This document shows, in pieces, positions 26,468 through 45,426 of a DNA stretch of 64,000 nt. A model generated the notes under the pieces. It was not told where the DNA came from. It was given only the letters and a program-made list of their open reading frames with translations, and searched no databases. Made by a program: the position numbers and the translations under genes. Every line of letters starts with the position of its first letter. Position 1 is the stretch's first letter. This DNA comes from Pirellula staleyi DSM 6068 (GTDB lineage: Bacteria; Planctomycetota; Planctomycetia; Pirellulales; Pirellulaceae), in contig CAMCMB010000003.1 in assembly GCA_945875845.1 (NCBI GenBank), positions 62,001 through 126,000 of the forward strand, given 5' to 3'.

Positions 26468-26709
26468 GGGGCTTGTTGATTTAGTGAGTCTTTACCTAAG
26501 CCATGGTTTTATCACAACCCGAAACGTGACGGCTTGTTGATTTAATGGTACGACGGACTTCCTAGTCCGTCGAATTCCCCATGGACGGACTTGGAAGTCC
26601 GTCTTACCGCCCTTACCCAATAACGACTTCACTAAAGCAACAAGCCGGTAAGTGAGGGGCAAAGAGTCCCTCGTTTACACTTCGGGTTGTGATTAAATCA
26701 ACAAGCCCC
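26468..26709. repeat. Outer palindromic element interrupted by a 116-bp element
   Basis: Outer ends GGGGCTTGTTGATTTA (26468-26483) and TAAATCAACAAGCCCC (26694-26709) are exact complements; a second pair, ATCACAACCCGAA (26511-26523) and TTCGGGTTGTGAT (26681-26693), nests inside. A 116-bp family B element sits in the middle at 26531-26646. The whole of 26245-26937 has no gene I can support; 26710-26937 includes a sequence related to 40166-40195 (CTAGYGCGTTCCGGCTGATT) and the upstream region of the next gene. Confidence 0.85.
26531..26646. repeat. MITE-like element, family B copy 1 (116 bp)
   Basis: Terminal inverted repeats GGCTTGTTG / CAACAAGCC, with an internal hairpin pair ACGACGGACTTCCTAGTCCG and CGGACTTGGAAGTCCGTC. 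Same length and structure as the copies at 36837-36952 and 40053-40168 (reversed). No coding capacity. Confidence 0.9.
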
Positions 26710-31800: not shown

Positions 31801-31925
31801 GGGAGGGTGAGGCTCCTGCCGAACCATTGCTTGGGAGGGTGAGGCTCCTGCCGAACCATGGCTTGGGAGGGTGAGGCTCCTGCCGAACCATGGCGTATTT
31901 AGCTCGGCAGGAGCCTCGCCCTCCC
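31801..31925. repeat. Family A repeat with triplicated left arm
   Basis: Three direct copies, period 32 bp, of the arm GGGAGGGTGAGGCTCCTGCC start at 31801, 31833 and 31865; a single right arm GGCAGGAGCCTCGCCCTCCC ends at 31925. The enclosing gap 31643-32086 has no gene; the segment 31926-32086 shows nothing recognisable. Confidence 0.9.
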
Positions 31926-36836: not shown

Positions 36837-36952
36837 GGCTTGTTGATTTAATGGTACGACGGACTTCCTAGTCCGTCGAATTCCCCATTGACGGACTTGG
36901 AAGTCCGTCTTACCGCCCTTACCCAATCACGACTTCACTAAAGCAACAAGCT
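36837..36952. repeat. MITE-like element, family B copy 2 (116 bp)
   Basis: Begins GGCTTGTTGATTTAATGG and ends near CAACAAGCTG, with the ACTTCCTAGTCCGTC hairpin inside; nearly identical to 26531-26646. It lies in the gene-free gap 36670-37127, which also contains a family C unit (36974-37026) and then ATTAAATCAACAAGCCC (37050-37068), the same terminus again, so this too may be a nested pair. Confidence 0.88.
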
Positions 36953-40052: not shown

Positions 40053-40168
40053 GGGCTTTCGATTTAGTGAAGTCGTTATTGGGTAGGGGCGTTACGACGG
40101 ACTTCCAAGTCCGTCAATGGGGAAATCGACGGACTAGGAAGTCCGCCGTACCATGAAATCAACAGCCC
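40053..40168. repeat. MITE-like element, family B copy 3 (reversed)
   Basis: Reverse-oriented copy, ends GGGCTTTCGATTTAGTGAAG and AAATCAACAGCCC, hairpin ACGGACTTCCAAGTCCGTC inside; again 116 bp. It occupies the gap 39915-40301, where I see no gene. It is followed at 40169 by CTAGCGCGTTCCGGCTGATT, which also follows the family B locus at 26709. Confidence 0.88.
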
Positions 40169-43540: not shown

Positions 43541-43543
43541 AAT

Positions 43544-45062
43544 ACATGCCATCTGGCTTTATGCCAGTGGTAGTTGACCTTCATGCTAGGGTGAAGGTAA
43601 CGAACCCCTGGGATAAACCCAGGGGCATTTTTGGTACATGCCATCTGGCTTTATGCCAGTGGTAGTTGACCTTCACGCTAGGGTGAAGGTGACGATCCCC
43701 CGGGGTGAACCCAGGGGCATTTTCAATGCATGCCATCTGGCTTTATGCCAGTGGTGTTGACCTTCATGCTAGGTTGTCTAGGTAGGATCGAATTTGCGCG
43801 GTGGTGGCACCGCCCGTTGTGCCTGCATAATAACTTGGCTGGAACAGCGTGTCCAATCTTGCCTCAACAAGAATTCGATTCCAACGAGATGCGAACCAGT
43901 GTTCCGCATTGTTCATCAATCGAAAAACAGCCGTATGGGTCGGAACATCAAGCGGCAAACCGAGCAACATATGAGCATGATCGGCAAGCACGCTCATGCT
44001 CCAACACAGCCAGCCTTCTCGTTCAATAAATTGCATCCAGAACTTCAACAGCTTTTGCGATACGAACTCATCGCGTAGCTCCACGCGTCCCTTTACGCAC
44101 AAAACAAAGTGAACATTGTTCTCATAGGCCGCGTGCGATGAAGTCTGAAGTTGTGAAGGAGATTGCGTGTGTTGGAAATGACGTGCTCCTATTGGTACCG
44201 TACCTCGAATCGGTATCGCGCGATGATGTGCAAATTGTTTCGCGATGTAATCTTGGATCGTTTGCTCGCAAACGGTTCCGTTGCTTCTAGCAAACCAACC
44301 TTTCGACCACAAGTTGCTTACGCCCTCGTGTCGAAATCGTGCCGACAACGCACCCTTTAGGTTTCGAGTTACTGCGGAAGGACAATCGGTTGGCAATGTG
44401 CTCATCAGACATCGCACAACGGTTGGTTCGTATTCCAATTCCAAAACGTGATATCCGTATCGCTCCGCTACTTCGTTGATGGTTGTTGAAGCAATGGACC
44501 TATTGGTCGGATCATGAAAATACGGCCGGCGGAGATGCGTGTACCAACCAAAATGGTACCGCAACTGATACGCAGCGGAAATGTTTTCCGACTGATGATA
44601 AGGCTTTCTTTCGGAAGACGAATCACTCATGATCGTTAATGGTGGTCTAGGGCGAAGGCAACGATCCCCTGGGATAAACCCAGGGGCATTTTTGGTACAT
44701 GCCATCTGGCTTTATGCCAGTGGTAGTTGACCTTCACGCTAGGGCGACGGCAACGATCCCCTGGAGTGAACCCAGGGGCATTTTTGATGCATGCCATCTG
44801 GCTTTATGCCAGTGGTATTTGACCTTCGTGCTAGGGCAAAGGCAACGATCCCCTGGGGTGAACCCAGGGGCATTTTTGGTACATGCCATCTGGCTTTATG
44901 CCAGTGGTAGTTGACCATCCAGCTAGGGCGAAAGCAACGAACCCCTGGGGTGAACCCAGGGGCATTTTCGATGCATGCCATCTGGCTTTATGCCAGTGGT
45001 AGTTGACCTTCACGCTAGGGTGAAGGTAACGATCCCCTGGGGTTAACCCAGGGGGCATTTTC
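43544..45062. repeat. Array of 92-bp palindromic repeat units split by a transposase gene
   Basis: Units begin CATGCCATCTGGCTTTATGC at 43545, 43637, 43729 and, right of the gene, 44698, 44790, 44882 and 44974: an exact 92-bp spacing on both sides. Each unit has three hairpins: GCCATCTGGC/GCCAGTGG, ACCTTCA/TGAAGGT and CCCCTGGG/CCCAGGGG. Unit 3 stops after CTAGG at 43773 and its second half resumes with CTAGG at 44647, so the gene between is inserted in the middle of a unit. The gene-free parts of 43541-43763 and 44631-45105 are entirely this array. No spacers, so not CRISPR. Confidence 0.95.
43764..44630 (-). CDS. Two-domain IS200/Y1-like (RAYT-type) transposase
   Basis: 288 residues from ATG 44630 (the frame is open to 44705, but that part is repeat DNA). 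It reads as two Y1-transposase-like halves. Half 1 (about 20-135): YHFGWYTHLRRPYF, then LWSKGWFARSNGTV and QDYIAKQ, i.e. the Tyr128/Gln132 helix is kept but the HUH position reads EPTVVRCL. Half 2 (about 168-288): VHFVLCVKGR, HUH motif DHAHMLLGLP (His218, His220), SYYAGTTGGATT and RSYLDNL, with Tyr283 but Leu in place of Gln. HUH Y1 enzymes cut single-stranded palindromic DNA. The last codons and stop lie inside repeat unit 3. Assignments by motif only. Confidence 0.82.
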   Translation of the reverse strand: MSDSSSERKPYHQSENISAAYQLRYHFGWYTHLRRPYFHDPTNRSIASTTINEVAERYGYHVLELEYEPTVVRCLMSTLPTDCPSAVTRNLKGALSARFRHEGVSNLWSKGWFARSNGTVCEQTIQDYIAKQFAHHRAIPIRGTVPIGARHFQHTQSPSQLQTSSHAAYENNVHFVLCVKGRVELRDEFVSQKLLKFWMQFIEREGWLCWSMSVLADHAHMLLGLPLDVPTHTAVFRLMNNAEHWFASRWNRILVEARLDTLFQPSYYAGTTGGATTAQIRSYLDNLA

Positions 45063-45105
45063 TCCCCCTGGGGTAGATCCAAGCGCATTGGAACGGTCAG
45101 GCTGG

Positions 45106-45426
45106 CTACAGCTTGCTGATCATTTCTTTGGCTTTCGCCTTGATATCGGCAGGCTTTGTCAGCCCTTGCAGTTCTCGAAGCAGCTTGATGAGTGTTTCGG
45201 CCTTGGCAGAGTCCGTAAGCTGGATACCGTTGATATCGGACTCAAGTCCGGTTATTCCACTCCCGAGTTGTCCAGTCTTCTCAAATTCCTCGAGCGTTTT
45301 TCGGACATTTCCCTCGATTGCAGACGTTGACACGGGTATTTTCTCATCGACAAGTCCGCCACCGCATCCTGAAACGGCAAGGCTCATTGTCAAAACGGCG
45401 AGGGCACAAAACTTCTTCATGAACAT
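45106..45426 (-). CDS. Small lipoprotein
   Basis: 106 residues. ATG 45426 has GGAG seven bases upstream. Signal MFMKKFCALAVLTMSLAVSGC with the lipobox VSGC, followed by GGG. The mature part is short, helical and acidic/basic mixed (IEGNVRKTLEEFEKTGQLG). No family recognised. It lies behind a DUF1559 gene, separated by a terminator; small lipoproteins of this size are frequent next to DUF1559 genes in planctomycetes. Confidence 0.82.
   Translation of the reverse strand: MFMKKFCALAVLTMSLAVSGCGGGLVDEKIPVSTSAIEGNVRKTLEEFEKTGQLGSGITGLESDINGIQLTDSAKAETLIKLLRELQGLTKPADIKAKAKEMISKL

Follow-up and report, generated by a model that had tools for sequence, protein, structure and literature searches.

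The question raised by this locus is how a transposase gene came to lie within a tandem array of hairpin-bearing repeats, and whether its product serves the repeat that surrounds it. The window, which is the whole 64,000-nucleotide stretch analyzed here (G000:C3:62001-126000), belongs to a source genome of 7.0 Mb in 149 contigs (G000) and holds seven ~92-bp units, 2.5 to the left and 4.5 to the right of a Y1/HUH transposase gene. The reading that we consider probable is a REPtron-like system that combines a family of fused, split-site transposases with a BIME-like repeat unit and a gene inserted at CTAG. The layout on which this reading is built is as follows.

43541..43773, plus strand: left array, 2.5 units of the 92-bp repeat (Tandem Repeats Finder)
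43769..43773, plus strand: CTAGG at the left junction, the proposed cleavage and joining site according to the position of the motif in the family
43774..44651, no strand: 878-bp insert with the transposase gene, bordered by CTAGG on each side and detected in one of the 27 genus members
44647..44651, plus strand: CTAGG at the right junction
44647..45061, plus strand: right array, 4.5 units of the 92-bp repeat (Tandem Repeats Finder)

Tandem Repeats Finder assigned a period of 92 to both blocks, with 89–90% matches, and the unit starts are spaced by 92, 92, 969, 92, 92, and 92 bp, as expected from the preliminary description of this DNA, which had placed 92-bp unit starts on both sides of the gene. 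CTAGG occurs in the arrays at 43586, 43678, 43769, 44647, 44739, 44831, 44923, and 45015, marking unit centers at 92-bp steps, or 91 in the interrupted unit, which has one base fewer. The gene does split unit 3 at its center, exactly at CTAGG, and the pentamer stands at both junctions where it had been reported (43769-43773 and 44647-44651); an extra copy within the insert (43778-43782) was absent from that account. Assembly error, which had been named as a possible source of the spacing, is unlikely, because the array copies differ from one another, dispersed copies occur in three genomes that were assembled separately, and two sister species share the left flank together with adjoining array sequence. 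A CRISPR-like array was also considered and rejected, as the units repeat end to end and variable spacers are absent.

The unit itself is organized around two hairpins, H1 and H3, which are represented at the interrupted unit by the following features.

43733..43754, plus strand: hairpin H1 of the interrupted unit, CCATCTGGC-TTTAT-GCCAGTGG, with one bulged T and with GCTA 13 nt after it
44666..44686, plus strand: hairpin H3, CCCCTGGG-ATAAA-CCCAGGGG, inverted to H1

Further copies of H1 are found at 43549, 43641, 44702, 44794, 44886, and 44978, and further copies of H3 at 43605, 43697, 44758, 44850, 44942, and 45034. H1 is followed by a spacer of 13–14 nt and GCTAG, while H3, read on the minus strand, forms a second hairpin that is followed by 14 nt and CCTA(G). 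The GCTAG of H1 and the CCTAG of reversed H3 meet in one palindromic CTAG, and because both hairpins use this common sequence, the 92-bp unit is an inverted pair of like elements, i.e., BIME-like. Three hairpins per unit had been proposed originally; H1 and H3 are retained, whereas the middle one, H2, is rejected as an independent hairpin, being formed by pairing of the complementary spacers of H1 and H3. In single-stranded folding, both full units folded beat 200 of 200 shuffles (z -4.24 and -3.54), as did one of the junction half-units, the other being matched by 3 of 200. Across 68 units from three genomes, standard pairs occupied 93.8% of pair cells, compared with 22–50% when the partners were slid. 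Covariation in this alignment exceeded that of shuffles solely for cells changed on both sides (7 vs. 3.6, 11/500 shuffles), and the other covariation measures were not above shuffles. A known RNA family was rejected as well, the Rfam search having returned just two sub-threshold miRNA matches.

The preliminary description had left room for a unit that occurs nowhere else. A genome search found it to be dispersed, with at least 105 BLAST matches to the 92-bp unit in the source genome, overlapping and opposite-strand matches included (40 of 76 candidates scored). The H1 core pattern, counted with up to one mismatch in 27 genomes of the genus, occurred 103 times in the source genome, 101 and 33 times in the sister species G405 and G416, respectively, once each in G399 and G360, and 0 times in the 22 other genomes; the backward pattern, used as a control, gave 0 in all 27. 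At least 92 arrays were mapped across G000, G405, and G416, the window's own excluded, and 27 of the 80 listed arrays away from contig edges contain at least 1.9 units. Among 72 listed arrays flanked by predicted genes, the two neighbors are convergent in 35 cases, codirectional in 26, and divergent in 11, the median distance from array to 3' gene end being 29.5 bp; predicted ORFs of at least 130 aa are overlapped by 14 of 80 listed arrays. Some of the repetitive intergenic sequence of these planctomycetes may consist of such arrays.

Array length differs by whole units at some common loci. At one shared locus, the arrays contain 1.47, 5.51, and 1.51 units, at a second 4.5 vs. 2.54 units, and at a third 5.83 vs. 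2.58 and 2.9, about three units apart; at other common loci the lengths are near equal or fractionally different (1.52 vs. 0.96). The phases of many array ends fall near CTAG and those of many others inside H3, and palindromes blur these ends. No clean empty site for units was found, the flanks lying on different contigs or having diverged. Six loci of G405 and G416 (L209, L210, L222, L224, L225, and L230) carry single 92-bp units within a larger repeat with near-constant flanks (gtattcgaaagtggcatgggcg...).

At the locus that corresponds to the window's own, the array comprises 3.5 units in G405 and half a unit in G416, and in both it ends at CTAGG(G) and lacks the gene. The preliminary description had suggested looking for an uninterrupted unit in relatives; array sequence without the gene is present in both sister species. 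Of the 27 genomes of the genus, one, G000, gave a match to the DNA encoding the transposase (P0001), as a single copy, with none found in the 26 others. No close copy of P0001 was found in G405 or G416, which gave distant family members only (24–28% identity), and the scanned family loci of these genomes (L102, L104, and L106) carry other hairpins. Both are fragmented assemblies, in which a gene flanked by arrays could be lost to a gap (contig <1 kb), and yet the absence of P0001 is the plain reading. It reflects either an assembly gap, loss of the gene, or spread of the repeat by another enzyme. An FG-GAP-like frame lies directly after the array in both sister species (L115 and L116) and is missing in G000 (window 45062-45106).

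P0001 consists of two Y1 folds in one polypeptide.

43764-44630, minus strand: P0001 tandem double-Y1 transposase gene, 288 aa plus TGA stop
44226..44579, minus strand: N half of P0001, residues 18-135, Y1 fold with Tyr128 and Gln132 (YIAKQ), HUH absent
43767..44153, minus strand: C half of P0001, residues 160-288, Y1 fold with HUH (H218-A-H220)

The stop codon falls in the flanking repeat unit. P0001 passes the cutoffs of NCBIfam IS200/IS605 NF033573 (108.3 bits, cutoff 55) and Pfam Y1_Tnp (106 bits, cutoff 23), and its match to NCBIfam REP_Tyr_transpos NF047646 (25.3 bits, E 1.2e-5) is below the cutoff of 80. Structure models were confident (pLDDT 86.2 and 94.9), and the C-half model superimposed on the ISDra2 chain 2xo6_D with an rmsd of 1.8 over 128 or 2.0 over 117 residues, and on other TnpA chains with an rmsd of up to 5.2. 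Among 63 family proteins, Y128, Q132, and H218 are kept in 63/63 and H220 in 61/63, the second HUH histidine being missing in L161 and L172. The equivalent N-half site contains HxH in 0/63, and a Tyr is aligned at the C-half position in 3/63, one of which is P0001 (Tyr 283), most relatives having no Tyr there. Because the N half provides Tyr and Gln without HUH, and the C half provides HUH with a Tyr in only these three proteins, one composite active site is expected from the sequences, combining the N-half Tyr/Gln with the C-half HUH. P0001's own site may not be purely split, given its second Tyr. P0001 and its sister L013 are on long tree branches, and P0001 is 18–26% identical to 36 relatives in alignment A1. 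A phage origin was considered and rejected (of 12 phage records none spanned 80% of the query, and the five listed matched only residues 8-135), as was a plasmid origin, for which a search with the relative L016 as its only query gave no match.

The family is planctomycete-centered. A first scan of genome contigs with P0001 alone as the query gave no match, and matches were later obtained in 58 of 397 genomes of the class, many of them full length and others single-domain. In a sample of the phylum, at least 4 of 294 genomes matched (E 1e-15, at most 8 candidates scored per genome), a count that is weak on absence. A pattern scan of one genome per species yielded 52 loci, four of which are labeled Nitrospinia, Puniceicoccaceae, Acidobacteria, and Sumerlaeota and are on MAG contigs that are perhaps mis-binned; the others are planctomycete, including Rhodopirellula solitaria, R. 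sallentina, Rubripirellula obstinata, and strain CA13. Of the first 26 double-domain loci, 9 had tandem arrays no more than 1.5 kb away, made up of 66–109-bp units.

Genes of this family mostly adjoin hairpins that are unrelated in sequence and alike in geometry. Among 486 hairpin-strands at 67 loci, 97 of the 133 GCTA occurrences within 30 nt 3' of a hairpin were 15 or 16 nt away. The arrangement hairpin-N10-19-GCTA within 600 bp of the gene was found 196 times, compared with 0.67 in simulated sequence, and at 48 of 82 loci, near-duplicates included; of the remaining 34 loci, 17 have ACTA, 8 ACCA, and 7 neither, with 2 unscored. For 63 non-redundant loci, the 58.8 kb adjoining the genes contained 172 hairpin-N11-17-(G/A)CTA elements, compared with 2 in 65.8 kb at greater distance, 6 in the remaining 60.5 kb of the window, and none in 15.6 kb around five single-domain IS200 loci. 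When two rearranged tetramers were counted as a control, 21 elements were still obtained near genes. H1 and reversed H3 beside P0001 fit the family geometry, and no element was found at the L013 locus. At the 63 loci, NCTA elements occur close upstream pointing at the gene in 40 cases and close downstream in 31, on both sides in 26, and on neither side in 18, the last group counting against the main reading. Of the 31 genes with a downstream element, 9 use the TAG of the inverted motif as their stop codon. A gene within a unit had been described as unusual, an assessment that does not survive this comparison: genes of this family often lie between inverted elements at CTA/TAG, as P0001 does in the window.

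The type of motif is clustered on the protein tree. The 63 rows of the tree comprised 36 with GCTA, 11 with ACTA, 8 with ACCA (a label that in some rows denotes one element), and 8 without a motif. The distribution of GCTA, ACTA, and ACCA required 11, 3, and 4 changes, respectively, compared with shuffled means of 20.4, 10.4, and 7.7, and for each type 0 of 500 shuffles were as low. Common ancestry of the flanking DNA adds to this clustering, and hairpin stems still differ within groups. Natural variation of the CTA motif over some 50 loci amounts to a built-in specificity alignment.

Two published accounts describe REP/BIME sequences as dispersed, largely intergenic hairpins in inverted pairs, often in tandem and differing in sequence between species, and REPtrons as generally containing one full-length Y1/HUH gene per REP type, often flanked by the repeats (PMC6006769; PMC8266576). 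The present locus resembles both, as the P0001 gene is flanked by genome-dispersed repeats and each 92-bp unit contains two inverted hairpins. RAYTs have one HUH-Y core, and E. coli TnpAREP appears as a monomer. In contrast, P0001 has two fused Y1 cores, with HUH and the invariant Tyr in separate halves. The guide GTAG of RAYTs is at the 5' foot of the hairpin, whereas the P0001 family has (G/A)CTA about 14–16 nt 3' of it; GTAG at offset 0 on the 5' side was present in 2 of 486 family hairpin-strands, and H1 and reversed H3 in the window have ATG where the foot would be. Furthermore, most Quentin class 2 subclass Y motifs end in NP, unlike the P0001 family, in which the Tyr has a Gln four residues on. 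By the sequence-based tests run here, namely the NCBIfam cutoff, the GTAG foot, and the single HUH-Y core, P0001 is not a RAYT. The original proposal of a REP/BIME-type array with a resident HUH transposase, forming a REPtron-like system in a planctomycete, is partly supported: the dispersed repeat, the REPtron-like arrangement, and the interruption of a unit at a meaningful site are borne out, and RAYT identity disagrees with the NCBIfam score, the lack of a GTAG foot, and the fused double domain.

The best sequence and fold matches of P0001 are IS200/IS605 TnpA proteins (IS608 and ISDra2), likenesses that extend to HUH and, putatively, hairpin recognition. IS608 also has a Tyr with a Gln four residues on, the latter being a metal ligand. 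CTAGG at both junctions resembles the left and right cleavage sites of IS200/IS605 elements. TnpA is about 150 aa and acts as a dimer with HUH and Tyr in each chain, whereas P0001 is one chain with one HUH. The combination of HUH and Tyr in one core per monomer is not typical of the family, though the C half of P0001 holds both. Multiple near-identical copies, which are typical of insertion sequences though not strictly required, are not present in G000, where the gene is single.

Quentin class 3 TnpAY1 proteins are described from Planctomycetes, Acidobacteria, and Proteobacteria, and their genes are flanked by atypical secondary structures, which can recur many times in the genome (PMC6006769). 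They resemble the P0001 family in planctomycete range and in a Y motif ending in Q, and differ in a length of about 178 aa, an NHVH motif, a 5' CnGA foot, and a printed Q that is one residue further from the Tyr (PMC6006769). Of the first 10 class 3 members, 5 are without conserved HuH or Y motifs (PMC6006769). TIRYT genes of TIRtrons, according to another account, are Y1 genes bordered by inverted repeats, which may overlap the ends of the gene, as here, and they differ in that HUH and Tyr are conserved in all aligned RAYTs and TIRYTs and that some TIRs have a common GGGGWSAS motif (PMC3733652). The same account records numerous repeat-flanked genes for tyrosine transposases in R. baltica (PMC3733652). 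Parts of this landscape were thus known before, i.e., the repeat-flanked genes of R. baltica and the small, planctomycete-rich class 3. No description of a fused double-Y1 transposase was found in the available text of the open-access literature searched.

In the mechanism that we propose, P0001 would be a single-chain pseudo-dimer of IS200/IS605-type TnpA that has lost one of its two active sites and kept the other, with Tyr and Gln supplied by the N half and HUH by the C half. The protein would serve the 92-bp repeat by binding the hairpin on single-stranded DNA, with the N-half Tyr cleaving at CTA about 14–16 nt 3' of the hairpin and the metal held by the C-half HUH and N-half Gln. Ends would then be joined between CTAG sites, and such joins could spread units and lengthen or shorten arrays by whole units, while the gene could sit in or leave a unit at CTAG, between two half-units. 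Whole-unit gain or loss and a gene between half-units would both follow from the position of CTAG at the center of each unit. The wider proposition, that single-chain pseudo-dimers with one trans site act throughout the lineage on REP-like elements with a hairpin-N14-16-CTA code, that the motif co-evolves with them, and that the gene is mobile at CTAG, seems to us evenly poised. If true, a one-site enzyme would have been reached by gene fusion, as monomeric TnpAREP reached it otherwise. On the path from transposase to keeper of REP repeats, a fused enzyme that looks one-sited would test the number of active sites needed.

Several other explanations have to be weighed against this REPtron-like reading. 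An ordinary IS200/IS605-type insertion may have landed in an array, the repeat being spread by another enzyme or by slippage and recombination. We consider this unlikely, since the gene is in one copy with just two distant paralogues matched in G000, relatives in many genomes adjoin hairpin-CTA elements whose motif type clusters on the tree, H1 and reversed H3 beside P0001 have the family geometry, and the N-half HUH is lost in 63/63 family proteins. It would agree with the restriction of the gene to 1 of 27 genomes when the repeat is abundant in three, with the array sequence that lacks the gene at the window locus in G405 and G416, and with the NCBIfam assignment of P0001 to IS200/IS605. CTAGG on both sides also fits the target and right end of such elements.

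P0001 might instead be an inactive, decaying relic and the array a fossil of past proliferation, an improbable account to which its long branch and low identity (18–26%) to the 36 relatives lend some weight, and against which stand an open frame of 288 aa, the kept catalytic residues, and array lengths that differ between sister species at some common loci. Least probable is that the arrays are structural or regulatory RNA or DNA elements, such as terminators or stabilizers of mRNA 3' ends, with a hitch-hiking transposase. A terminator needs neither a CTA at fixed distance nor the clustering of that motif with a transposase, no fitting Rfam family was found, and the repeat is common in just three related species of 27; the strong hairpins and the location of arrays near 3' gene ends, with 61 of 72 listed between convergent or codirectional genes, are what such a role would predict.

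Other double-Y1 genes of G000 also have repeats beside them: L010 (G000:C5:66937-67599) adjoins a 309 bp tandem repeat and L011 (G000:C13:23657-24430) adjoins tandem repeats of 18/36 bp, with a further ORF near L011 matching part of the C half. Elsewhere in the window, a second palindrome, GACGGACTTCCAAGTCCGTC, with part of a second copy, occurs three times, at 26563-26603 (minus strand), 36869-36909 (minus strand), and 40096-40136 (plus strand), and a 32-bp tandem repeat, GGGAGGGTGAGGCTCCTGCCGAACCATGGCTT, occupies 31801-31894 in 2.9 copies with 98% matches (Tandem Repeats Finder).
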